Of a DNA stretch of 64,000 nucleotides, positions 7,443 to 43,179 are shown in pieces. This DNA is from Terrimonas sp. (GTDB lineage Bacteria; Bacteroidota; Bacteroidia; Chitinophagales; Chitinophagaceae). Position 1 is the first letter of the stretch, and every line of letters begins with the position of its first letter. The DNA lies in contig WGMO01000003.1 in NCBI GenBank assembly GCA_016125075.1, positions 62,001-126,000 on the forward strand. Reading direction: 5' to 3'. Both the position numbers and the translations under genes were made by a program. A model generated the notes under the pieces. It saw only the letters and a program-made list of their open reading frames with translations. It searched no databases and was not told where the DNA came from.

Positions 7443-8096
7443 ATGCTGCGGAAAGCCGGATTGTTTTTGCTGCTTTGCCTTTTTAATTCCGGAGCCTTTG
7501 CCCATGAAGTGGTGCTGGAACTGGATAAGATGTCCGGATATAAAGCCGCCCGTGTTTATCTCGAAATGGGGTATAAACATATCCTGCCACTGGGATTTGA
7601 CCATATTCTCTTTGTGCTCAGTCTATTCTTACTGAGCACAAAGTTAAAAACCGTACTCTGGCAATCCCTGACCTTTACGATCGCCCACTCGGTTACATTA
7701 GGACTGGCGATGTATGGAGTCATCAGGCCGCCTTCCCAAATTGTTGAACCCCTGATCGCCATTTCAATCGTTTATGTGGCCCTTGAAAACATCTTCTCTC
7801 CGCGTTTAAAAGCTTCCAGGATTGGCGTTGTATTTCTTTTTGGCCTGGTGCATGGAATGGGTTTTGCCGGTGCCTTATCCGGATTAGGTTTGCCGGATGG
7901 TTCTTTTGCAGTATCGCTTGTTATGTTCAATGTGGGTGTGGAACTGGGACAACTAACGGTGATCCTGCTCGCCTGGTACCTGATGGCAAAATGGGTGGGT
8001 GATAAATCTTACTACCGGAAATATTTAGTGATTCCATTGTCGACGATCATTGCAATGGTTGCTGTGTACTGGACGATTGAAAGGATTTTTTTATAA
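7443..8096 (+). CDS. HupE/UreJ-like membrane protein
   Basis: 217 residues from the ATG at 7443, which gives a clean signal peptide (MLRKAGLFLLLCLF... AFA) before HEVVLEL; ATG 7407 is an alternative, and the open frame itself extends back to 7254 through the terminator. Five or six membrane spans follow. Conserved histidines sit in GFDHILF, the AHS segment and HGMGFAGAL, as in the HupE/UreJ group associated with nickel or other metal supply for hydrogenase and urease. No hydrogenase or urease gene is in the window, so the cargo is unknown. Context (TonB receptor, DUF4331, TPR lipoprotein) supports envelope transport. Confidence 0.8.
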   Translation: MLRKAGLFLLLCLFNSGAFAHEVVLELDKMSGYKAARVYLEMGYKHILPLGFDHILFVLSLFLLSTKLKTVLWQSLTFTIAHSVTLGLAMYGVIRPPSQIVEPLIAISIVYVALENIFSPRLKASRIGVVFLFGLVHGMGFAGALSGLGLPDGSFAVSLVMFNVGVELGQLTVILLAWYLMAKWVGDKSYYRKYLVIPLSTIIAMVAVYWTIERIFL

Positions 8097-9377
8097 GGAC
8101 TTTTTCAGGTCCCTCAGTTGAGATGGGGTTAGATCATATTTATTTTTCTGTGCAGCTTCCAAAAATCTTTTCGCATTATACCCTTTCTTCATTTCCTGCA
8201 TAAGTTTTCCCATATAATAAAGTTCAGGACCTTCCAGCGGTTTCCCGGAAACGAACTGTCTGAACACTTCATATGCTTTTTCCTTTTTGTCATTATTGAG
8301 TAATGCCCAGGCATACCATGCGTAGGTTTGGGGTGTCCTGCGGTTCATCAGTTCCTGCTCTGACAATTGAAGCGCCGTTTCAGGTTGTTGTAAAACGCCG
8401 GTATAGAGGGTAATCAGGTATTTGTTATACATGTTTTTGTATTTTTCATGACCAGCCATTTTAGCGTATGCAAGTGCAAGATTTTTAAAACCGGTACGGT
8501 CGCCGGCAGCATCGGAGGTATAAGCCATTTTTAGCAAAGCATCCGGGGATGCAGTATGGGCCTGAACAAATTCAAATATTCTTCTGGCCAGGACAAAATT
8601 CCTGTCATGCTGGAGTGCTATCCAGCCAATTCCCAGCATGCTGTGAAAATCAGTTCCGTTCAGGTTGATACTTTCCTGGTACAATTGATAGGCTTTTTTC
8701 AGGTCACCCTTATGGATGCAGAGATCCGCCGTGTTAGACAACGCAGCCTGTTGCAGGTACTTGTTTCCGTTTGCCTTTTCAGCTGCGAGCAGCATGTAAT
8801 GGATTGAACTGTCTAATGATCCTGCGTAATGTTCAAATTTTGATTTGCGGAAATAATAGGCATAGTTGTCCCTGGGATATATCCTGTTTAAGGCGTTTTC
8901 AGCTTCTTTATAAAAACCTGTTTCGAAGAAGACATCAAAAGAAGTGACAATTGTTGCAAAATTATCACCGCTCAGCTGACGAGCTTTTTCCAGGCAGGAT
9001 CTTGCTCTTTCAAAACGGTGTTCTAATTGCGAGAGGGAAGCAAGGTTGAGTAAAATCCCGGATTCGTGCTGTTGATAGGCTCGGGAAGCAGCCGATAAAA
9101 GGCTGTCAGCAGCCAGCAGGTCTTCAATATCTCCAAAAAGATGAAAGCGGGCAGAAAGTGCCGATGAAAGTTTAGGCCCGTACACAAAGTTGTCGGGTAA
9201 ACTATCCATTCTCTTCTTCCAGAAACTGTAATTACCGTTGATGGCTTTTGCAGCTTCGGGTAGCGAATAGTTTTTCAACAGGCTGTCTGCATAGCTAATT
9301 TCAACAATAGGTCTGTTGCCTGACTGGCAGGCTGAAAACAGGGAGCAAACCAGGATGAGCAGGGAGGAGATTTTCAT
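8091..9377 (-). CDS. TPR-repeat lipoprotein
   Basis: 428 residues with a lipoprotein signal (MKISSLLILVCSLFSAC, Cys17). The rest is helical tetratricopeptide-like repeats from about 60 to 400, e.g. LASLSQLEHRFERARSCLEKARQL, ALSNTADLCIHKGDLKKAYQLYQES, YYMGKLMQEMKKGYNAKRF. Probably a periplasm-facing scaffold. It converges on the HupE-like gene with a 6-bp overlap. TPR proteins often accompany DUF4331/HupE genes in this phylum (general knowledge, not checked here). Exact role unknown. Confidence 0.75.
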   Translation of the reverse strand: MKISSLLILVCSLFSACQSGNRPIVEISYADSLLKNYSLPEAAKAINGNYSFWKKRMDSLPDNFVYGPKLSSALSARFHLFGDIEDLLAADSLLSAASRAYQQHESGILLNLASLSQLEHRFERARSCLEKARQLSGDNFATIVTSFDVFFETGFYKEAENALNRIYPRDNYAYYFRKSKFEHYAGSLDSSIHYMLLAAEKANGNKYLQQAALSNTADLCIHKGDLKKAYQLYQESINLNGTDFHSMLGIGWIALQHDRNFVLARRIFEFVQAHTASPDALLKMAYTSDAAGDRTGFKNLALAYAKMAGHEKYKNMYNKYLITLYTGVLQQPETALQLSEQELMNRRTPQTYAWYAWALLNNDKKEKAYEVFRQFVSGKPLEGPELYYMGKLMQEMKKGYNAKRFLEAAQKNKYDLTPSQLRDLKKSL

Positions 9378-17782: not shown

Positions 17783-18037
17783 TTATCGGTCTGAACCAGC
17801 CTGTTCATGCGTTTTTTGCCGGTGTTTGATATCAAATTTGAGTTTATGGACGAAAGCACTGCCCATGAAATAAACACCCAAAGAAAAACAAAGGGAGTCC
17901 AGTACTGCGAAAATGACCCACCTGGAAGTATCCTGCAGGTAGGCCAGGGAGTAATAAATAAAAAAGACGGCGATTACGATCAATAAAAATCCCAGTAAAG
18001 ATTTGATAATCCATTTGTCATAGTGGTTGCTGGCCAT
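17783..18037 (-). CDS. Small two-span membrane protein
   Basis: 84 residues. Two hydrophobic segments (about 13-34 LLGFLLIVIAVFFIYYSLAYL and 40-63 VIFAVLDSLCFSLGVYFMGSAF), then a basic tail (KLKFDIKHRQKTHEQ). I do not recognise a family. It converges with smc across a terminator. The clean ATG and membrane-protein composition favour a real gene; function unknown. Confidence 0.6.
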   Translation of the reverse strand: MASNHYDKWIIKSLLGFLLIVIAVFFIYYSLAYLQDTSRWVIFAVLDSLCFSLGVYFMGSAFVHKLKFDIKHRQKTHEQAGSDR

Positions 18038-18139
18038 GGTTTAAAATTTCAATAAATGTAGAAAAAATAAATATAATGTTAATTAGTCATCCTGAAGACC
18101 TTTTTGAATCCGGGGATTTGATAATTTTAATGTTCAATA

Positions 18140-18733
18140 ATGGATATGAAGAAGATACTTTTTTATTGTTTGATAGTATGGTTTTCTGTACCGGTACTGG
18201 CACAGGAGAAGCCCGAAGGATTGTTTATCAATTCAAAGGCACCTGATTTTAAGGGGAAGGATCAATTGGGGAATGATATCCGGCTAAAGGATATGCTCAA
18301 AGAAGGGCCGGTAGTCCTTGTTTTTTACAGGGGAGAATGGTGTCCCTATTGCAATAAAGCCTTAAAAAAACTGGAAGATTCCCTACAATTTATTACTGAT
18401 AAAGGGGCCCGGCTGATTGCTATAACACCAGAAAAAACCCCTTCAGTAGCCAAAACGGTCGAGAAGACGGGAGCTAGTTTTTCCATTATTTCAGATGATA
18501 AGCTTAAGATCATGAAAGCTTATGATGTGGCATTCCAGGTCGACGAAAAAACAGTAAAGCGCTACAAAAGCTTTGATATCGACCTGGCAGGTAATAATGG
18601 CGACAATGGGGCTTATCTTCCGGTTCCCGCCGTTTATATTATCAATAAGGAAGGCTCCGTTACGTTCCGCTACTTTGAGCCGGATTACAAGAAAAGGGTT
18701 TCGGTAAAAGAAATTCTGGATAATATCCAATAA
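18140..18733 (+). CDS. Exported peroxiredoxin-like protein (AhpC/TSA)
   Basis: 197 residues with a signal peptide (KKILFYCLIVWFSVPVLAQ). The thioredoxin-fold domain has FYRGEWCPYC (about 56-65), where the peroxiredoxin Cys position lies in a CxxC pair, then AITPEKTPSVAKT and VPAVYIINKEGSVTFRYF. Likely reduces peroxides or disulfides in the periplasm; which one cannot be told from sequence. The start could be 18140 or the second ATG at 18146. Confidence 0.82.
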   Translation: MDMKKILFYCLIVWFSVPVLAQEKPEGLFINSKAPDFKGKDQLGNDIRLKDMLKEGPVVLVFYRGEWCPYCNKALKKLEDSLQFITDKGARLIAITPEKTPSVAKTVEKTGASFSIISDDKLKIMKAYDVAFQVDEKTVKRYKSFDIDLAGNNGDNGAYLPVPAVYIINKEGSVTFRYFEPDYKKRVSVKEILDNIQ

Positions 18734-18779
18734 AGGATCAGGCAATTTCCGGCATTGGCTTGTAGGAGCTGTTATTGAA

Positions 18780-19817
18780 TTAATTGATCCTGAGTCGCGC
18801 GATCTTACCGTTATTGCCACTGAGAAAAACGGCAGTACCGAATTTAGCTGCCTGGCAGCTGTGAAATCCGCTATTACTGATCAGACTCCAGTTTTTTCCA
18901 CCATCATAAGAATAGTCCACGCCGTTGAGTCCGCAACTGATGATTTCCTTTTTACTGAGGTATTCTACACAGCTCCTGTATCCATGCGGGGCAGTATGGG
19001 GCTGCTTCCAGGACCTGCCCCTGTTTTCCGAATAGGCACAATTGAGACGGGTTGAATCCGGGTGGTTAAAATCACCTCCTACAATGATGATCCTGCTACC
19101 GGCATTTTTTCTGTAATCATCCCAAACGGCTACCGAGTTGGCACCCGTTGTTTCCCGGCCCTGTAAAATGGGGATGCTGATTTTTTCATTGTTGATAAAA
19201 AGATGAGATTGAACCCCACCGCTCGCCAAAAACAGGGATTGGTTATAGAGTAGGGAAATATTGGTTCCGCTTGCAGCAAAAAAAGCCTCACCGGTGTTTG
19301 CGGTAGGTCTTTCATCTGTTGTCAAACTGTTCCAGGTTTCGCCACCATCAGTTGTTTTTGCCATGAAAAAATGACCATCTACAGGGTCACCGATCACAAT
19401 GCCATTGGCAGGAGTACTAAAATCGAAGGCGTCGAGAAACATACCCTTTGTCTTGTTTTCATAAACAATTTTCCAGGATTCACCGCCGTCATGGGTTTTT
19501 AGGATATACGCCGGTTCCCCAATGGACAGCATGACAGCCGTGGAAGCATCAAAGGCTTCGATATCCCTGAAATCATTTTTCTCAAACCCTTTTACAGTGA
19601 TCCATTTCCAGTTTTTACCCCCATTACTGGAACGGCCCACTACGCCGTTGCTACCGCTCACCCAAACAATATTATCATTCACAACACTCAACCCTCTTAA
19701 ACTGGTCTGCATGCCGGAATCCAGTATTTCAATGAAAGGATGTTTGTTTTGGGCGGTCAGGTCACTGTTAGCGAATAATAATGCCAGCAGGAATAATACA
19801 GGTATTGTGCGACGCAT
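18780..19817 (-). CDS. Exported BNR/YCF48-like beta-propeller protein
   Basis: 345 residues with a signal peptide (MRRTIPVLFLLALLFANSDLTAQ). It has repeated Asp-box-like motifs: SSNGGKNWKWI, THDGGESWKIV, TTDGGETWNSL, SENRGRSWKQ, SYDGGKNWSLI. Such repeats form propeller blades in sialidase-like and photosystem assembly (YCF48) proteins; annotation pipelines often name these oxidoreductases without evidence. No catalytic residues of sialidases are evident. It is 3 bp upstream of the rhodanese-thioredoxin gene end, same strand, so the two are probably cotranscribed in the order 20525 to 18780. Confidence 0.75.
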   Translation of the reverse strand: MRRTIPVLFLLALLFANSDLTAQNKHPFIEILDSGMQTSLRGLSVVNDNIVWVSGSNGVVGRSSNGGKNWKWITVKGFEKNDFRDIEAFDASTAVMLSIGEPAYILKTHDGGESWKIVYENKTKGMFLDAFDFSTPANGIVIGDPVDGHFFMAKTTDGGETWNSLTTDERPTANTGEAFFAASGTNISLLYNQSLFLASGGVQSHLFINNEKISIPILQGRETTGANSVAVWDDYRKNAGSRIIIVGGDFNHPDSTRLNCAYSENRGRSWKQPHTAPHGYRSCVEYLSKKEIISCGLNGVDYSYDGGKNWSLISNSGFHSCQAAKFGTAVFLSGNNGKIARLRIN

Positions 19818-35348: not shown

Positions 35349-36119
35349 ATGAACAGGTTACAATTACTATTTAAAAATAAGAGCAGCAGGGTGCTCAATG
35401 TGTACTGCACGGCTGGTTATCCCCACCTGGACAGCACCCTTAATGTCATGAGGGCTTTGCAGGACCATGGAGCGGATATCATAGAGATTGGGATGCCTTA
35501 TAGCGACCCGCTGGCAGACGGGCCGGTTATTCAGCAAAGCAGCAGTATCGCCCTGGGGAATGGGATGACCATTAAAAAGTTATTTGAACAATTGAAGGAC
35601 TTTCGATCAACGATCCGTATACCCGTTGTGTTGATGGGCTATATGAATCCGGTATTACAGTATGGGTTTGAACAATTTTGTGCCGATGCTGCTGATGTAG
35701 GTATCGATGGATTGATTATCCCCGACCTTCCGGAATATGAATTTGACACTGAATATGGACCGATCATCCGGCAATACGGTTTAGATTTTATCTTTCTCAT
35801 CACACCCGAAACATCGGTGGAAAGAGTGGAAAAACTGGATGCGAACAGCAGTGGCTTTCTCTATGCTGTATCCTCATCTTCCACGACCGGTTCGGATAAA
35901 AATATGCCTGATGTAAAAGACTATTTAAAACGGATCAACAACCTGGGTCTCCGGAATCCTGTCCTGGTGGGATTTGGCATACGGGATAAAGAAAGTTTTG
36001 AAGGGGCCTGTGCACTGGCCAATGGTGCAATCATCGGCAGCGCCTATATAAAAGCTTTGGGAACGGGTAAAAATATCGAAGAAGCGACAAAAGAATTTTT
36101 AAATGCAGTATTAAAATGA
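35349..36119 (+). CDS. trpA: Tryptophan synthase alpha chain
   Basis: 256-residue TIM barrel that releases indole from indole-glycerol phosphate and channels it to TrpB. Visible: VYCTAGYPHLDSTL, DIIEIGMPYSDPLADGPVIQQSS (catalytic Glu and Asp), LMGYMNPVLQYG, DGLIIPDLPEYE, VSSSSTTGSDK, VLVGFGIRDKES, IIGSAYIKAL. The TGA stop shares its last base with the antisense tRNA-Gly gene. Last trp gene. Confidence 0.97.
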   Translation: MNRLQLLFKNKSSRVLNVYCTAGYPHLDSTLNVMRALQDHGADIIEIGMPYSDPLADGPVIQQSSSIALGNGMTIKKLFEQLKDFRSTIRIPVVLMGYMNPVLQYGFEQFCADAADVGIDGLIIPDLPEYEFDTEYGPIIRQYGLDFIFLITPETSVERVEKLDANSSGFLYAVSSSSTTGSDKNMPDVKDYLKRINNLGLRNPVLVGFGIRDKESFEGACALANGAIIGSAYIKALGTGKNIEEATKEFLNAVLK

Positions 36120-36191
36120 GCGGAAGACGGGACTCGAACCCGCTACCTACAGCTTGGGAAGCTGTCGCTCTACCAGATGAGCTACTTCCGC
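36119..36191 (-). tRNA. tRNA-Gly (CCC anticodon)
   Basis: Full cloverleaf on the minus strand: acceptor GCGGAAG / CTTCCGC, D arm GCTC...GAGC, anticodon arm ACAGC-TTCCCAA-GCTGT (anticodon CCC), variable loop AGGTA, T arm GCGGG-TTCGAGT-CCCGT, discriminator U73. CCA is not encoded. The discriminator base lies opposite the last base of the trpA stop codon. It is antisense to the his/trp transcript direction and is the attachment site of the element to its right. The D loop has U15 where a purine is usual; with A48 this could still make a reversed Levitt pair (inference). Confidence 0.95.
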
Positions 36192-36194
36192 TTG
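36142..36194. repeat. Left attachment repeat (attL), within intact tRNA
   Basis: 53 nt identical, apart from one base (A at 36177), to 43127-43179. It covers tRNA-Gly positions 1-50 plus three upstream bases. Here the rest of the tRNA follows, so the left copy is the functional gene. Confidence 0.9.
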
Positions 36195-36214: not shown

Positions 36215-36310
36215 AAATGTTCGAAATATCGAACATTTCGCTGATTTTCAGATGTTTGAAATTTCGAACATCACATGATTTTAATGTCAAAATGTTCGAT
36301 TAATCGAACA
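36215..36310. promoter_or_regulatory. Three palindromic operator-like sites upstream of the recombinase
   Basis: Site 1, 36215-36238: AAATGTTCGA and its exact complement around AATA. Site 2, 36251-36272: GATGTTTGAAA / TTTCGAACATC, one mismatch. Site 3, 36293-36310: TGTTCGATTAATCGAACA, a perfect palindrome. All share TGTTCGA...TCGAACA; centres are 35 and 40 bp apart. They lie between the tRNA 5' end and the recombinase start, so a dimeric repressor could control the recombinase, the tRNA, or both. The XRE-like gene at 39.2-39.5 kb is a candidate regulator (inference). Confidence 0.65.
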
Positions 36311-36376
36311 GAAGCCGATGCAATAATTGGAGGAAATTTCTGTTTTAACAACATTCCACATGCAAAATGTATGCAA

Positions 36377-37657
36377 ATGGCAAAAATTAACCGTCCCTCC
36401 ACCTCAATCGTGCTTGACACACGTTATCAAAGAACAAACAAAACGTATCCTGTAAAGTTAAGGCTAACATTCCGACAAAAGCAATACTATTACCCGACAA
36501 ACATCTATCTAACCCAAGCTGATTTTGACCGAATGAATGGGCCAAAGCCCCGTGTAGCATTCCAGGAGTTAAAAAGGAAAGCCTATGATGAGAAATACCG
36601 GGCCGATGATATTATCGAGGATTTGAGGGATTTCAGTATCCAGGCATTCGAGGCAAAGTTCCTTGCGCCTAAAAACCTCACCACTGACCTAAGCAGCCTT
36701 TTTGAATCTTACTGGAAAAAGCTACAGACGGATGGAAAGGCTGAGGGTACAATTGCCCTTTATAAGACCACATTATCTTCTATCTTAAAATTTCATCCCC
36801 ACTGCCAGGTTACAGATATAACGGTTTCATGGTTGAAAAGCTATGAAAACTGGATGCTGCATGAGCAAAATAATAGCTCTACAATTCTAAGCATCTATCT
36901 CCGCAATCTCCGTGCAGTGATAAACCGGGCCATCAAAGTGGATAAGGTAATGAATGAAGACCTTTATCCCTTTGGAAAATATGGTTATTCCATACCGGAA
37001 GGCAACAATGATAAGCAAGCTTTAGACTTTGCAGACATAGAGAAGATATTTAGCTACAAACCTGTTGCCGTGACTGCCGAAGATAATTTTTACCAACGCA
37101 ACAGGAAAGAAAATATCAGAAAGGCGAGGGCCTTCTTCTGTTTTAGTTATTTGGCAAGCGGCATGAATTTAAAGGATATGGCCTTACTAAGGAACTCAGA
37201 TATTACCAATGACCAAATCATCTATTACAGGGCCAAAACCGCATCCCGGAGAAAGAAACCTCAACCTATCAAAATACCGCTCAGAAAGGAAATAAAAGGT
37301 ATCCTACGAACCTGGGGAAATAAGAGCAAAACCCCGAATGATTTTGTTTTCGACATCTACACCCCAGAAATGACACCCAAACAGCAAAGGGCCAAAATCC
37401 AGGAGTTCAATAAATTCATGAATAAATATCTTGGCTTATTAGCAGAAGAAGAATTAGGTATCCCAAGGTTTACTACTTATGCAGCAAGACATTCATTTGC
37501 TACAATTCTGCGCAATAGCGGTGCGCCTACCGAGTTCATCCAGGAATCATTAGGTCATGAAGACCTGGCCACGACACAAAATTATTTGGCTGGTTTTCCT
37601 GATGCCATGAAACGGAAGTGGACTGAAGCTTTGACTGATTTCAAAAAAGCGTCTTGA
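36377..37657 (+). CDS. Tyrosine recombinase / integrase of the element
   Basis: 426 residues from ATG 36377 (MAKINRPSTSIVLDTRY), which matches the usual start of Bacteroidota integrases; the open frame goes back to 36275 and ATG 36371 is also possible. N-terminal arm-binding domain, a SAM-like core-binding domain (about 100-200), then the catalytic domain. Visible: ARHSFAT (catalytic Arg about 371), LGHEDLATTQNYL with His about 394 and the nucleophile Tyr about 403. The first catalytic Arg of box I is not evident: the segment reads LASGMNLKDMALL. Loss of it is known in integrases of Bacteroidota conjugative elements (IntDOT type). Integrates the element into tRNA-Gly. Confidence 0.9.
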   Translation: MAKINRPSTSIVLDTRYQRTNKTYPVKLRLTFRQKQYYYPTNIYLTQADFDRMNGPKPRVAFQELKRKAYDEKYRADDIIEDLRDFSIQAFEAKFLAPKNLTTDLSSLFESYWKKLQTDGKAEGTIALYKTTLSSILKFHPHCQVTDITVSWLKSYENWMLHEQNNSSTILSIYLRNLRAVINRAIKVDKVMNEDLYPFGKYGYSIPEGNNDKQALDFADIEKIFSYKPVAVTAEDNFYQRNRKENIRKARAFFCFSYLASGMNLKDMALLRNSDITNDQIIYYRAKTASRRKKPQPIKIPLRKEIKGILRTWGNKSKTPNDFVFDIYTPEMTPKQQRAKIQEFNKFMNKYLGLLAEEELGIPRFTTYAARHSFATILRNSGAPTEFIQESLGHEDLATTQNYLAGFPDAMKRKWTEALTDFKKAS

Positions 37658-37673
37658 TTTATTTTCAAATTTT

Positions 37674-39143
37674 ATGAGAGTATTTATTCCAGAAAATATC
37701 GAGATTGAAGAACTTCTAAAGAAAACTCCGCCTAAAAACAACGGTAAACCAAAGAAGGATTATTTAGCCTATGTCATGGGAGTGGTGAGTGAAGAAATCT
37801 TTAAAAGGCGGAATCGGCTTGAAGTTGACGAGTATGTTCCCATCTATAGCAAACTGTTAAAAGAACTGATTGGCAGCAACTATAATAAATATCTTGACTA
37901 TCTGCGAAGGACAAAGATTTTAAAAAGAAATAAACAATATACAGAAGGAAAGAGTAGGGGCTATTATTTCAACAAACCATATCTGAAAGGATTTAAGCCC
38001 TACACAATCAAAGACAGAAAACTAAGACTTAAATTAAAAACATATTTTGAAAAGGAAGAAAGGGCGGCAGTAAGAAAACTTCCATATCTCCATAAATGGA
38101 TTAAAAGCGGAAAGCTATCAATTGAAAAAGATTTGGCTCAGTCTGTTTTGCCATTAAAGTATAATGAGAAAATAAATGCACCGAAATCTTCGAAAAGCAA
38201 GATGTCAAAGGAAGAAATTGCTAACATATCCATGTATTGTTGGCAAAGAAGTATTGATAGTTTTTACAACGGAATTTATGTTAATAGATTTACAGTTGAT
38301 GACGGAGGCGGAAGACTGCATACTGCTTTAACTAATATATCCCGAAGTTTTAGAAAGTACTTGAAGTATGACAACCAAACATTAGTTCATGTTGATATTG
38401 CCAATTCACAACCCTATTTTGCGGCAGTATTGCTAAATCCCAGCTTTTGGGAATCATCAATGCTTAATTCACGGCAACGGCAGCGAATCAGACAAAAGTT
38501 AAATAAAAGGAAAAAGCACCCGCAACCCCAAAATGAACCTAAAGCCAAAAAAGAAGGTTTTGAAATATCCCCAAAGCTAAAATCTGATATTAAGTATAAT
38601 AAGTATTATTCACTACTTATGGTGCTTAAATCAGATGAAAGTGAGTCCCAGAGGGAGTTTGAGCGATACAAAAAATATGTCAGTTCGGGACAGTTTTACC
38701 AAAAAGTAGCGGATGAATTTAACAACGCTGTTAAACCCCGGAAAGATGCAATGAGGGAAGATGTCAAAAAGTGGATGTTCGAGGTATTTTTTTCCAAAAA
38801 TCCACCTTTCTTGGTCGAATCGTTAGAACGTCCACAATCTAAGTTGTTCCGTCAGTTATTTCCGGCAGTTAGTCAAATCTTTAAGATAATCAAAAAAGAC
38901 AAACACAATACTCTGGCTCTTTTACTACAGAATCTCGAAAGTCAGGCCCTACTTCACTGTATATGCCGTTTAATAGCCAGGAAACACCCCAAAATTCCCT
39001 TATTCACCATTCATGACAGTGTTGTTACCACAGTAGGCAATGAAGGCATTGTAAAAGAAATAATGCACCAAGAACTTGAAAGATTAACTGGTCTGCCTCC
39101 TACACTAAGGATTAAAATTTGGGACGAACATTATGATGAGTAA
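37674..39143 (+). CDS. Family A polymerase-like protein of the element
   Basis: 489 residues, not a standard annotated family to me. Four segments in the right order match the family A DNA polymerase / T7-type RNA polymerase core: GRLHTALTNI (213-222; compare GRLSS...NLQNI of Pol I), motif A LVHVDIANSQPYFAAVLL with Asp241, motif B RxxxKxxxFxxxF (Arg361, Lys365, Phe369, Phe373; Tyr in most at the last position), and motif C FTIHDSVVTT with His447-Asp448. The two metal-binding Asp are thus both present. No exonuclease domain; the first 200 residues are Lys-rich and unrecognised. It starts 16 bp after the recombinase gene and is likely cotranscribed. Probably a replicase or primer-polymerase for the excised element (inference). 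Catalysis is unproven. Confidence 0.7.
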   Translation: MRVFIPENIEIEELLKKTPPKNNGKPKKDYLAYVMGVVSEEIFKRRNRLEVDEYVPIYSKLLKELIGSNYNKYLDYLRRTKILKRNKQYTEGKSRGYYFNKPYLKGFKPYTIKDRKLRLKLKTYFEKEERAAVRKLPYLHKWIKSGKLSIEKDLAQSVLPLKYNEKINAPKSSKSKMSKEEIANISMYCWQRSIDSFYNGIYVNRFTVDDGGGRLHTALTNISRSFRKYLKYDNQTLVHVDIANSQPYFAAVLLNPSFWESSMLNSRQRQRIRQKLNKRKKHPQPQNEPKAKKEGFEISPKLKSDIKYNKYYSLLMVLKSDESESQREFERYKKYVSSGQFYQKVADEFNNAVKPRKDAMREDVKKWMFEVFFSKNPPFLVESLERPQSKLFRQLFPAVSQIFKIIKKDKHNTLALLLQNLESQALLHCICRLIARKHPKIPLFTIHDSVVTTVGNEGIVKEIMHQELERLTGLPPTLRIKIWDEHYDE

Positions 39144-39182: not shown

Positions 39183-39458
39183 CTATTTTTTCCCGGTTGG
39201 CTTTTTTTCAATGGCTTTAACAATCAAGTCGTACAATTTTCTGCTGTCAATATTTATAAGTTGGGAATAAGCGAGAATTTCCTTAACGGTAAATTTTTCA
39301 GGATTCTTTATTTTTTCTGTCAACCTCACAAAATTTATTCCTGTTTCCTTCACAAATACAACTTTAGGAACAATCTCAAAAATTTCGGAGAAGGCTTTTA
39401 TTTCTCCTGAATCAATGTATGTTTTTAAGGCATTAAACCTTTTGTCTTTCACTTTCAT
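39183..39458 (-). CDS. Small XRE/HTH-like regulator
   Basis: 91 residues. MKVKDKRFNALKTYIDSGEIKAFSEIF... is followed by helix-turn-helix-like VVFVKETGINFVRLTEKIKNPEKFTVKEILAYSQLINIDSRKLYDLIVKAIE. It resembles the short Cro/C1-type proteins common in Bacteroidota, where a LG(I/M)N...RL...P..F(T)...I...A.LI..D pattern recurs. It is divergently oriented from the recombinase and polymerase genes and could bind the TGTTCGA palindromes. Assignment is from pattern only. Confidence 0.6.
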   Translation of the reverse strand: MKVKDKRFNALKTYIDSGEIKAFSEIFEIVPKVVFVKETGINFVRLTEKIKNPEKFTVKEILAYSQLINIDSRKLYDLIVKAIEKKPTGKK

Positions 39459-39608
39459 TGTGTTTGGACAAAAGGTATATTGGATTAGGGGTATGTTTTA
39501 CAAAAAGCGATTCTATGTATTTGTAAATCATACAAATTGTATTATTTTGGCGGTTAAAATGTATGAGATGATATAGCCATGCTAAAATGGCTAAAAAAAA
39601 TACCAACT

Positions 39609-40475
39609 ATGAAATATTCAATCCTTTTGTTTCTGCTCGTTATTTGTGGCGAAACATACAGTCAGGAATTACCCGTCAACCCCCAAACCGGTCTCATTTT
39701 TATTAAAGATTCAGCGGAAACAAATGGCAAGTCATTGCAAGAAGTAAAGGATGTACTATCAAAGTGGGCATATACGCTTCTTGATGAGGGGAATCTTGTC
39801 AAAGTATATAAGCTCGACAATTCAAAGCAGACTGAAAAGATTTCAATCAATCTGCCTTTATGGTCGGTTCTCACGCAGGATAAGGGTGGCAATAAGTTTG
39901 TAATCAATGGCACGCTGACATATAGCAAAACCAAAACAAAAGGACTTGCACCAACCGTAACTTTTGGTGCAGTCAAATTTGATTTTTCATACACTATTAG
40001 TGCAAATAGATTAATCTATGAATTCACCAATTTGGAATACAGTCATGATATGGTGCATTATGGAAAGTTTGAAGGGGATAAGCCGCCAAGTGATAATTAC
40101 AACAACTCATTGCTTTTTAAGATGAGCAAAAAAGAGTGGGCGGCTGTGAAGACAGAGTATTTCGAGAATCTCAAAGTCCTTACTGCAAACTTAAAAGAAT
40201 ATTCAGGGAATTTATTAATGAGCAATCAGGCCATAACAAACAAGTCTCCGATAAATTATGAATCATATAAGAAGATAACAACAGGAATGAGCTACGACGA
40301 TGTTGTAAAGTTATTAGCAGTTGAAGGAAAGGAACTCAGTAATGGAATCACGCAAATAAATGGGAAAGCCGTAACTCAACAGACAATTGTCTGGAATGAT
40401 TTAGACAAAACCAAAAACATTACAATCACTTTTACGGATGGAAAAGTGAGTTCAAAATCTCAAACTAATTTATAG
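39609..40475 (+). CDS. Exported DUF4468 / OmlA-like protein
   Basis: 288 residues from ATG 39609, which gives a signal peptide (MKYSILLFLLVICGETYSQ); an upstream ATG 39579 is less likely. Residues about 20-190 fit DUF4468, a TBP-like fold (LPVNPQTGLIFIKDSAETNGKSLQEVKDVLSKWAY, YEFTNLEYSH). The last 65 residues (YKKITTGMSYDDVVKLLAVEGKEL... TQQTIVWNDLDKTKNITITFTDGKV) resemble the SmpA/OmlA or BLIP-like repeat. Cargo of the element; function unknown. Confidence 0.7.
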   Translation: MKYSILLFLLVICGETYSQELPVNPQTGLIFIKDSAETNGKSLQEVKDVLSKWAYTLLDEGNLVKVYKLDNSKQTEKISINLPLWSVLTQDKGGNKFVINGTLTYSKTKTKGLAPTVTFGAVKFDFSYTISANRLIYEFTNLEYSHDMVHYGKFEGDKPPSDNYNNSLLFKMSKKEWAAVKTEYFENLKVLTANLKEYSGNLLMSNQAITNKSPINYESYKKITTGMSYDDVVKLLAVEGKELSNGITQINGKAVTQQTIVWNDLDKTKNITITFTDGKVSSKSQTNL

Positions 40476-40482
40476 TAGTCTT

Positions 40483-41250
40483 ATGAATGCCTATTTCATC
40501 AAAACTGATAAGAAACAATATGGGCCGCTAACACTTGAAATGCTCAAATCTCTATCCATTCATAGAGATACCATGCTGTGGAGAAAGGGAATGAATGAAT
40601 GGCAGAAAGCGGAAGAGTTTCCGGAGCTACAATCAATTTTTACGGACGTACCTCCAAACTTGGACGGTACTTCGTTTCATCGGCATTCCTACATAAAAAA
40701 GAAAATACTGCTCTTTAGACTTGCCAAATGCGTAAAGCCAGCGTTAATAGCTTCAGTTATTCTGACAATTTTAACTGCTGTTGTCCTATGGCTTACTTTT
40801 AAACCGAACAAATTTGGCGAAGCGGAGGTTGAGCGAATTAATCAGTATTTCAGGGAGCAACAGTTAAAGTTTCAAGCTCAGCAGATGGCGGATGAGGCTG
40901 AAATGAGAAAGTGGAAAGAGTATGAGAGACAGCATCCAGAAGTTGAGCAAGAGAGGAAAAGGCTAACAGAAGGAATCAATAACCCATTCAAAGATGTTGG
41001 TGTAGTTCCCATCGGCCCAGGAGCAAGTATTCCCTACGAATATGTGGATGGTTTTTGGGATTATTGTAAAAACGCCGATGGAGAGGTATTTCTTAACCTA
41101 ACAGATATTAAGTCCAGTTTCGATAGTCGCAGTTCATATCTGACCAAAAAAATCGTAAAGATTTGTGTGTTTTCGTTTTTGATATTCTTTGCGACAATAT
41201 TGGCATTTTTATATTACAAACATGGTTTAGTAAATAGGAAAGTATCATGA
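40483..41250 (+). CDS. GYF_2 domain membrane protein
   Basis: 255 residues. The first 50 (AYFIKTDKKQYGPLTLEMLKSL...DTMLWRKGMNEWQKAEEFPEL) are a GYF_2 domain. Two membrane spans (about 88-106 ALIASVILTILTAVVLWL and about 226-244 VFSFLIFFATILAFLYY) flank a soluble Glu/Gln-rich helical region (about 115-170). 7 bp after the DUF4468 gene, so probably one transcript. GYF_2 domains are thought to bind peptides; no partner is known here. Confidence 0.75.
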   Translation: MNAYFIKTDKKQYGPLTLEMLKSLSIHRDTMLWRKGMNEWQKAEEFPELQSIFTDVPPNLDGTSFHRHSYIKKKILLFRLAKCVKPALIASVILTILTAVVLWLTFKPNKFGEAEVERINQYFREQQLKFQAQQMADEAEMRKWKEYERQHPEVEQERKRLTEGINNPFKDVGVVPIGPGASIPYEYVDGFWDYCKNADGEVFLNLTDIKSSFDSRSSYLTKKIVKICVFSFLIFFATILAFLYYKHGLVNRKVS

Positions 41251-41299: not shown

Positions 41300-41698
41300 A
41301 TGTATATTACCCCAATTACGAGGATGGTTTGCGTGCTTGATGGCTATTTAGAAATTATAAACAGCTATCAACGGAATCTTGTTATGGATATTAATCAAGA
41401 TTTTCATTTAGAAAATACAGAATCAGGTATATATGTCCGGCGCAATCCTGAAAGCCTACATAATCTAAAATCTGAACCCGGAAAAGCACGCCAAATTGTC
41501 GCCCACATGAAGAATACATTAAGAGGTGGCTGTGGTGGAAAAAATAATATTGATTCTTTGGAGACTTTATTAAAGCAACATGCTTCCTATTTTTATCAAA
41601 ATGACTCCGACTCATTTCTGTTTGCTGAATCTGTTGTCTGCCGAATGATTGAATTAGCTGCCGACGACAGCCAGTTTTCTGAATTCTCTTATTTTTGA
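41300..41698 (+). CDS. Hypothetical protein of the element
   Basis: Up to 132 residues; the second in-frame start, ATG 41384 (MDINQDFHLENTES), would give 104 and looks more natural. It contains a Gly/Cys stretch (LRGGCGGKNN) and an otherwise helical C-terminal half. No family recognised, no signal or membrane span. Same direction as the GYF_2 gene, 49 bp downstream. Confidence 0.45.
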   Translation: MYITPITRMVCVLDGYLEIINSYQRNLVMDINQDFHLENTESGIYVRRNPESLHNLKSEPGKARQIVAHMKNTLRGGCGGKNNIDSLETLLKQHASYFYQNDSDSFLFAESVVCRMIELAADDSQFSEFSYF

Positions 41699-41809: not shown

Positions 41810-42262
41810 TTAATAGTCCCAAATACTTCTCCGATTTTTTGGTTGGGGAGTGTAGTTCGGCGGAGTATATTCAATCAATTGATTTTGATTTATCCATTGA
41901 TGCTTCACTTCCTTTTCGTGCGTCCAAGAACAGTGAACTTTATTATTTATAAAATTGTAGCTGCCTGCACTCATTACTGGATAGGTATGAGTTGATAAGA
42001 TTACCCTCGTTCCTTCCTCAAATTTTTGTTTAGCTTTTAGTTTTTTTCTTACAAGAGCTATGAATATAACAAGAAGTATTAAGCCTACAGTAAAAGCCAG
42101 AAGTTGACTTACAGTCAGCACAATTTTTTGGCTTAATAAGGCTTTAGTAGCTTTAGCAATTGCAAAGACCGAAAGCCCTGTAACGATTGCAAAAAGGGCA
42201 ATAATCTTTTCTACTGAAGTCTCAATGAGTTTGTCATATACCTTGTCCGAAAAGCTGCTCAT
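41810..42262 (-). CDS. Membrane protein with a DUF2158-like C-terminal module
   Basis: 150 residues. Two membrane spans near residues 20-40 (IIALFAIVTGLSVFAIA) and 48-70 (VLTVSQLLAFTVGLILLVIFIALV), then a basic linker (RKKLKAKQK). Residues about 80-130 (GTRVILSTHTYPVMSAGSYNFINNKVHCSWTHEKEVKHQWINQNQLIEY) resemble the small SH3-like DUF2158 (YodC-type) domain. Opposite direction to the other cargo genes. Function unknown. Confidence 0.6.
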   Translation of the reverse strand: MSSFSDKVYDKLIETSVEKIIALFAIVTGLSVFAIAKATKALLSQKIVLTVSQLLAFTVGLILLVIFIALVRKKLKAKQKFEEGTRVILSTHTYPVMSAGSYNFINNKVHCSWTHEKEVKHQWINQNQLIEYTPPNYTPQPKNRRSIWDY

Positions 42263-43126: not shown

Positions 43127-43179
43127 GCTACCTACAGCTTGGGAAGCTGTCGCTCTACCAGGTGAGCTACTTCCGCTTG
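43127..43179 (-). repeat. Right attachment repeat (attR): truncated tRNA-Gly
   Basis: Contains positions 1-50 of tRNA-Gly plus three upstream bases, with G at 43162 where the left copy has A. The T arm and 3' acceptor strand are missing, replaced by element sequence, so this copy cannot be a tRNA. It is the remnant of the chromosomal 5' half; hisH starts 17 bp to the right. Confidence 0.9.

Follow-up and report, generated by a model that had tools for sequence, protein, structure and literature searches.

The 489-residue protein whose gene lies directly behind an integrase gene in the window (the whole 64,000-nucleotide stretch of DNA that was analyzed) is very probably a polymerase, as judged by its predicted fold and its active site. 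It is encoded on a 6,985-bp segment that is, with practical certainty, a site-specific integrated island, and on balance we favor a role for the protein as the replication polymerase or primase of this island. The first-pass annotation had proposed a compact family A polymerase without an exonuclease domain on a small integrase-borne element, and the predicted fold and the conservation of the motifs agree with that proposal. These results place a family A polymerase at the center of a class of Bacteroidota islands that is linked to very large phages, and the polymerase family has no name in Pfam, PHROGs, NCBIfam, or the PDB as searched here. Should the enzyme prime, it would extend the known routes to primase activity and could serve as a compact tool enzyme; should its product be RNA, it would be a small single-subunit RNA polymerase.

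The island at the tRNA-Gly gene

The island is bounded by direct repeats of 53 bp, the left of which overlaps the gene for tRNA-Gly(CCC), and the integrase and the polymerase are its first genes (Table 1). The G+C content was found to be 32-42% inside the island versus 41-52% in the flanks. The gene order that is interrupted is presumably trpA, tRNA-Gly, hisH, the gene names having been recognized from the ORF translations. In three relatives the site is empty: the joined flanks match across the junction, the tRNA-Gly(CCC) is intact, and there is no insert. The spans of the query that matched were 122-594 and 119-464 in two of these genomes and 219-596 in a genome of the same genus, the last covering the tRNA and the right flank only. 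Because of the repeats, the overlap with the tRNA, the contrast in G+C content, and the empty sites in relatives, the segment is assigned as a site-specific integrated island, and the small integrated element suggested earlier is borne out. The start codon of the polymerase gene follows the integrase stop codon by 16 nt, directly behind the integrase as had been claimed. For the integrase itself, the in-frame ATG at 36377 appears to be a likelier start than position 36275.

Table 1. Features of the island and of the polymerase gene, in window coordinates.
Feature	Position	Strand	Basis
tRNA-Gly (anticodon CCC), integration target	36118..36191	-	ARAGORN
Left attachment repeat (attL), 53 bp	36142..36194	.	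direct repeat, 98% identical to 43127-43179, spacing 6985
Three palindromes TGTTCGA-N4-TCGAACA, possible operator or origin sites	36218-36235, 36253-36270, 36293-36310	.	attL to likely integrase start
Tyrosine integrase (Arm-DNA-bind_5, SAM-like, Phage_integrase domains)	36275..37657	+	Pfam, Phage_integrase E 2.6e-19
Polymerase gene, 489 aa	37674..39143	+	ORF translation; conserved motifs; predicted fold
N-terminal domain, residues 1-114, probable winged helix	37674..38015	+	AlphaFold2 pLDDT 91.8, pTM 0.84; VIA best Z 7.6
Predicted thumb, palm, and fingers of polymerase, residues 130-488	38061..39137	+	VIA Z 15.2 to Pol1 6vdd, 281 aligned, rmsd 4.4
Motif GRLHTAL with R214, position of GRL hairpin arginine	38310..38330	+	R in 99/100 aligned rows
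Motif A, DIANSQP, catalytic Asp241	38394..38414	+	D241 100/100, Q246 99/100
Motif B, R361-x3-K365-x3-F369-x3-F373	38754..38792	+	K365 100/100
Motif C, H447-D448-S449	39012..39020	+	H447 and D448 100/100, S449 90/100
91-aa ORF, possible small regulator (guess from sequence)	39183..39458	-	no family above cut-off (Pfam, PHROGs, NCBIfam)
298-aa protein, signal-like N-terminus, DUF3862, cargo	39579..40475	+	Pfam E 6.3e-6
GYF_2-domain membrane protein, cargo	40483..41250	+	Pfam E 1.2e-13
132-aa ORF, cargo	41300..41698	+	no family match
150-aa ORF, probable membrane protein, cargo	41810..42262	-	weak Pfam matches, mostly membrane families
Right attachment repeat (attR), 53 bp, just upstream of hisH	43127..43179	.	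direct repeat

The three palindromes are near-perfect, have starts that are 35 and 40 bp apart, and occur nowhere else in the window. The pattern taken from the first site gave 6 matches (3 sites, both strands) with at most 3 mismatches, against 0.03 expected. When repeated 9-mers were counted between attL and the integrase, the window contained five copies, versus a largest value of 3 in five shuffles. In the same test of 18 other islands delimited at tRNA genes (described below), four reached 4 copies versus 3 and the rest were within the shuffles (L141: 3, one shuffle 3), so that by this test a repeat cluster comparable to that of the window is absent between att and integrase in those 18. 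Since no comparable cluster is found in the other islands, the palindromes may be operators instead of a conserved origin. No SSB-like or helicase partner was recognized in the island by searches of Pfam, PHROGs, and NCBIfam, a kind of search that OB folds escape.

Active-site motifs and predicted fold

The residues named in the first-pass annotation (R214 of the GRL segment, Asp241, R361/K365/F369/F373, and H447-D448-S449) were all located at the claimed positions of the ORF translation. In an hhalign comparison, the spacing of motif B was the same as that of the host's own Pol I, MRYKAKSVNFGIIYG. Conservation was determined from a 100-row alignment of the 489-residue protein with 99 of 110 non-redundant homologues, from which we excluded 11 fragments or over-long ORFs; a further alignment (A5) took 89 of the 100 rows. 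The 99 aligned homologues are 23-33% identical to the protein, and only eight columns are invariant: D241, S245, P247, Y342, K365, E422, H447, and D448. The three residues singled out beforehand for a conservation check, Asp241, Lys365, and Asp448, are thus unchanged in 100 of 100 rows. Six of the eight invariant columns fall inside the 23 residues of motifs A, B, and C (hypergeometric P 1.4e-7, with motif limits of our own choice), and because of this concentration the motif set is taken to be more than chance. In the R361 column, 72 of the 100 rows have R and 22 have K. The F369 column contains F in 47 and Y in 32, so that F or Y is found four residues past the lysine in 79 rows; the F373 column contains F in 81 and Y in 19, which places F or Y eight residues past the lysine in every row.

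Searches with the protein sequence gave no match in PHROGs, NCBIfam, or the PDB and none above the cut-off in Pfam, where DUF3994 was best (E 0.041, below cut-off). The cut-off of Pfam DNA_pol_A (PF00476) is not reached by the protein, and this model matches one place in its own genome, the host Pol I. A 20-row homologue profile found no polymerase match in the PDB. In the 20-member alignment, one member touches phrog_15971, annotated as DNA polymerase I (E 0.002), and five match phrog_4756 (function not known). The hhalign comparison of the homologue profile with the host Pol I gave P 0.043 and a probability of 1.2%, yet motifs B and C were aligned correctly. A demonstration of polymerase kinship from sequence alone failed (no library match; hhalign P 0.043), and the assignment is made because of the predicted fold, not a sequence score.

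The AlphaFold2 model built on the 100-row alignment has a pLDDT of 89 and a pTM of 0.87. Using VIA-align 2, residues 131-488 were matched to Pol1 of M. smegmatis with a Z of 15.2 and an rmsd of 4.4 over 281 residues. The best 50 VIA matches (Z 13.4-15.2) are all family A DNA polymerases, including DNA polymerases I, theta, nu, T7, and apicoplast. With Foldseek against the PDB, 36 matches had E <= 0.001, each a family A DNA polymerase or a complex containing such an enzyme; a mitochondrial RNA polymerase stands at rank 46 among the best 50 matches, and the whole-chain TM-scores are low (0.23-0.41). A search of viral structures returned a Barbavirus polymerase among its matches (E 4.3e-6). The structure prediction called for beforehand, which was to reveal whether a palm exists, thus gave a right-hand polymerase fold. 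The predicted right-hand palm together with the motif A aspartate, the motif B lysine, and the motif C aspartate corresponds to a family A (Pol I-like) enzyme. The 3'-5' and 5'-3' exonuclease domains of a bacterial DNA polymerase I are absent, as had been claimed: residues 1-114 form another domain and residues 130-488 the polymerase. Because the thumb, palm, and fingers and the N-terminal domain fill the chain, there would be no room for an exonuclease. Gln246, conserved in 99 of 100 rows, lies at what we take to be the position of the sugar-gate glutamate of Pol I, motif A being aligned gap-free. On the evidence of Gln246 and the HDS triplet of motif C, the product may be DNA or RNA.

Residues 1-114, when folded alone with AlphaFold2, have the element order of a winged helix. 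Foldseek found no match to these residues below E 0.001; inside its first ten rows are the N-domains of 4pql, 5kbj, and 4pt7, which we take to be plasmid RepA initiators. The VIA matches include ORC2 and origin-recognition winged helices (Z 6.7-7.6), the plasmid initiators 4pt7 (Z 7.3) and 4pql (Z 7.2), and Fur (Z 7.2); models that lack a clear match commonly score a Z of 7-8. Judged from the model, the domain is a probable DNA-binding winged helix, and its likeness to initiators, level with that to Fur, is a lead.

Relatives in chromosomes, phages, and plasmids

Using the single protein as query, 13 of 395 genomes of the window's phylum gave a match, its own genome included, and the 100-row profile gave 19 of 395. 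A pattern scan of genome contigs yielded 79 loci (80 of 84 matches were kept), 77 of which have Bacteroidota titles by our reading; the other two come from one MAG titled Rickettsiales, and may be misbinned. A survey of integrase-adjacent homologues in Bacteroidota, suggested at the outset, found a tyrosine integrase within 4 kb in 53 of the 66 loci that have more than 4 kb on both sides. The nearest integrase is upstream on the same strand in 43 of the 53 and downstream and convergent in 10. The detector used the window's integrase alone as seed, with a minimum of 300 aa. The within-locus control for this linkage came to 1 of 5 ORFs, which is too small, and viral contigs served as the contrast set: an integrase was detected within 4 kb in 0 of 58 viral loci.

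Of the 79 loci, 18 yielded delimited tRNA islands, in which the repeats are separated by 6,006 to 15,134 bp. A repeat overlapping the end of a tRNA gene, as read off the table by us, was the definition of delimited, and some of these repeats are 16-24 bp. The islands lie at Arg, Asp, Ser, Phe, Asn, Met, Val, Ala, and Glu tRNAs and at one tRNA of undetermined isotype; with the Gly of the window included, there are ten isotypes in addition to that tRNA. The empty-site check covered the island of the window, and for other loci the island end may lie past the flank. By choice of the loci, the integrase and the polymerase are the constant pair of the islands, and the defence genes vary. In a scan of 145 of 168 cargo ORFs (at least 75 aa, none with X, the window's five excluded), the variable genes were HTH_17 proteins (excisionase-like by position), restriction-modification enzymes, resolvases, SIR2, SEFIR/TIR, ArdA, RadC, DUF3871, AAA_24 ATPases, and an ABC exporter. 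A prohead protease or DUF5681 protein, as packaging-type Pfam matches, was found in two delimited islands. No named helicase, relaxase, or replication initiator is among the Pfam families listed (25 of 33 and 25 of 31), which include one CHC2 zinc-finger match. As no other such family is among those listed, the polymerase is the sole shared replication-type gene seen.

Several single loci deserve mention. In a same-genus genome (L280), the polymerase gene lies near a tRNA-Met (7904-8746 and 17885-19444 noted) with no integrase detected in 19.9 kb; by eye, an AAA_24-like ATPase is nearby and Cas2-like and SIR2-like genes are further off. At L111:9971-12028 and L004:1471-3528, one island polymerase, 686 aa in total, has a C-terminal extension that resembles a GIY-YIG homing endonuclease by eye; for the trimmed copy in the 20-member alignment, Pfam GIY-YIG gave E 0.046 for one member. 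Loci L114-L127 and their relatives, which represent many Flavobacteriaceae, have a near-uniform arrangement of an integrase of ~416 aa, a gap of ~450 bp, and the polymerase, beside a tRNA-Ser. No right-end repeat was found in the flank examined, and these are possibly long or fixed islands. L182 (Rufibacter latericius) contains five ORFs of the family, whole and partial, inside 12 kb and may be an island hot spot.

In IMG/VR, 148 of 165 pattern matches encode a relative, and 80 of the 148 were kept for the viral set. Three queries of a phage record collection returned six records of 595-735 kb, all titled uncultured phage, two of which are equal in length and perhaps represent one genome. In a quick tree, the phage and chromosomal members are largely separate, with 8 label changes versus 34 in shuffles; the tree informs this split and does not settle the placement of the 489-residue protein. 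Among 16 phage records that carry the family, 10 match a family B polymerase, 3 a family C polymerase, and 4 a family A polymerase, and 13 of the 16 match a family B or C replicase. Toprim_2, a domain of primases and also of other enzymes, was found in 7 of 13 phage records, 5 of them above the cut-off. From these sequence matches, the phage version looks like an extra polymerase. Since most phages with a relative also encode a regular DNA polymerase, it is not to be assumed that the protein carries out bulk copying. That the family supplies the main replicase of large phages is unlikely for the 13 records with a family B or C match. Three queries of 72,556 plasmid records found one record with a homologue. 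A role as sole plasmid replication protein is rejected for this plasmid, which has its own annotated replication initiation protein.

Two features of the phage loci were noted in passing. A short, divergent second family A protein adjoins the relative in 7 of 84 viral loci at a distance of 0-271 bp (L051:10976-12280 and homologues in L024, L036, L041, L045, L047, and L048); its representative matches DNA_pol_A with E 2.7e-21, and three records that contain it also match a family C replicase. Two conserved genes, represented by L106:8162-9592 and L077:11127-11708 with their homologues, flank the phage polymerase in 41 of 84 viral loci each. Neither representative has a Pfam or PHROG match, and the upstream gene has no match in the PDB.

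Proposed function and known systems

In the mechanism that we propose, the integrase would cut the 6,985-bp island out of tRNA-Gly in circular form, as the att repeats and the empty sites suggest, and the gene cluster of the integrase would also supply the polymerase. The probable winged helix at its N-terminus would hold the polymerase on the island DNA, perhaps at the palindromes near the integrase. The exonuclease-less family A domain would then start or support a new strand on the circle, as a primase or primase-polymerase, and the host replisome would complete the copy. Catalytic activity, DNA as the product, priming, origin binding, and replication of a circle are what we infer. It is a tentative further suggestion that an origin-binding winged helix fused to a priming family A polymerase might act as a one-protein replication starter, together with the host helicase and replisome. 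If true, this starter would define a family A class of self-replicating Bacteroidota islands, parallel to the pipolins, with an enzyme common to very large phages. The predicted fold, the invariant catalytic residues, the island with its empty sites, the linkage to the integrase, the lack of another shared replication-type gene among the listed cargo families, and the initiators among the top N-terminal matches argue for a replication role, for which CCPol-MP and the pipolins are precedents. Against it count the full replicases and the Toprim_2 matches of the phages, the separate initiator of the plasmid, the absence of a shared iteron-like site by the 9-mer test, the failure to recognize an SSB-like or helicase partner by sequence, the equally good N-terminal match to Fur, the low whole-chain TM-scores, and the same-genus copy with no integrase detected in 19.9 kb.

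It is unlikely that the protein is instead a single-subunit RNA polymerase, like that of T7, transcribing island (or phage) genes. The likeness to T7-type RNA polymerase that the first-pass annotation drew from motif C holds for the HDS triplet, which is common to both, and finds no support beyond it: the profile alignment to T7 RNA polymerase by hhalign spans motif C only (P 0.14), the best 50 structural matches from VIA are all DNA polymerases, and in the best 50 from Foldseek the mitochondrial RNA polymerase comes only at rank 46. The glutamine at the presumed place of the sugar gate (in a gap-free alignment) and the presence of the phage members in addition to a regular DNA polymerase would fit such an enzyme. 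For divPolA2, this possibility was also put forward by Yutin et al. (PMC11348598). It is likewise improbable that the protein, instead of replicating the element, is an accessory DNA polymerase for filling gaps or ends in excision, integration, or recombination. The linkage to the integrase and the occurrence in phages beside a replicase are consistent with it, as are three genes matching AAA_24 and five matching DUF3871 in the delimited islands, which could, as a guess, be a recombination module; however, the phage members have no integrase detected within 4 kb (0 of 58), and tyrosine recombinases require no DNA synthesis.

Abi and DRT reverse transcriptases make toxic or protective DNA upon phage infection. 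We consider it quite improbable that the present protein is a defence polymerase of this kind: large phages themselves retain it, and the integrase and polymerase are constant where the defence genes are variable, although the restriction enzymes, SIR2, SEFIR/TIR, and ArdA genes of the islands and the failure to find an obligatory replication partner would fit such a role. Nothing was found in favor of a decayed host Pol I or an ORF that arose by chance, and both are ruled out for practical purposes by the active site that is invariant in 100 rows, the host's own Pol I elsewhere in the genome, and the confident predicted fold.

The closest enzymes described are the TV-Pols of Iyer, Abhiman, and Aravind (2008), which are family A polymerases reduced to a minimum, found in transposons and viruses and in some cases next to lambda-type integrases; they were proposed to act as primase plus polymerase and count Bacteroidetes among their hosts (PMC2579912). 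Their description includes a fingers aspartate that is conserved, together with either D5-like helicases or an N-terminal domain that is all-helical (PMC2579912). The 489-residue protein shares with this description the exonuclease-less family A core, the hairpin arginine, the two aspartates, the RxxxK motif (with R at position 361 in 72 of 100 rows and K in 22), and the location in mobile elements. In contrast, no fingers aspartate is conserved here, the best acidic column between motifs A and B being E328 (55 E and 29 D of 100), and the N-terminus is winged-helix-like, the all-helical domain of the TV-Pols being itself a prediction. No D5 helicase family is among the Pfam families listed for the island genes (25 of 33 and 25 of 31), and a homologue profile run against Ma-LMM01 returned an empty answer with no match. 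Because the fingers aspartate is not conserved, the protein is not filed as a TV-Pol, with TV-Pols compared by their description; on the same footing, some Bacteroidetes TV-Pols may belong to its clade.

Pipolins are integrative elements with a priming family B polymerase, piPolB (PMC7385651). As described there, they resemble the present islands in the tyrosine recombinase, the tRNA target, and the att repeats, and also in that the polymerase gene is constant where the cargo varies; the pipolin enzyme is of family B, whereas the present one is of family A by its predicted fold and is not a primer-independent family B polymerase. CCPol-MP of SCC elements is a family A polymerase able to prime, and no TV-Pol besides CCPol had been characterized to the knowledge of its authors (PMC7581432); Rice (2023) extended the work on family A primases in Bacillota (PMC10061031). 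CCPol-MP and PolA-SSB, of SCC and related elements, are, like the present protein, family A polymerases of mobile elements, with a primase activity that is known there and proposed here (PMC7581432, PMC10061031). By the same accounts, they occur together with a helicase, a partner of OB fold, and serine recombinases, and in the full-length enzymes the exonuclease domain is retained in part or whole, whereas sequence searches found no such feature here.

Yutin et al. (2024) described additional, divergent PolAs of phages; among them, divPolA2 of tailed phages resembles the present protein in being an extra family A-like protein that has no exonuclease and begins with a globular domain (PMC11348598). 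It is said to be without a homologous thumb (PMC11348598), whereas the present match spans the thumb region. In the member compared, AUR84708, motif A is DFKAFET and motif C is FDE versus DIxNSQP and HDS here. The homologue profile gave no match to divPolA2, and hhalign gave P 0.028, but there is a likeness in structure, seen in the Barbavirus polymerase match of the viral structure search. Phage satellites, as far as they are described, are similar in size (7-20 kb), att repeats, integrase, and replication gene, and differ in that packaging-type Pfam matches occur in only two delimited islands. In the open-licence literature, we recognized no paper that matches the present set, where a family A polymerase accompanies an integrase, be it in tRNA islands or among Bacteroidota. 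The best reading of these comparisons is that the 489-residue protein is close to the TV-Pols, with a TV-Pol-like core on a pipolin-like element and with its own N-terminal domain and host range.
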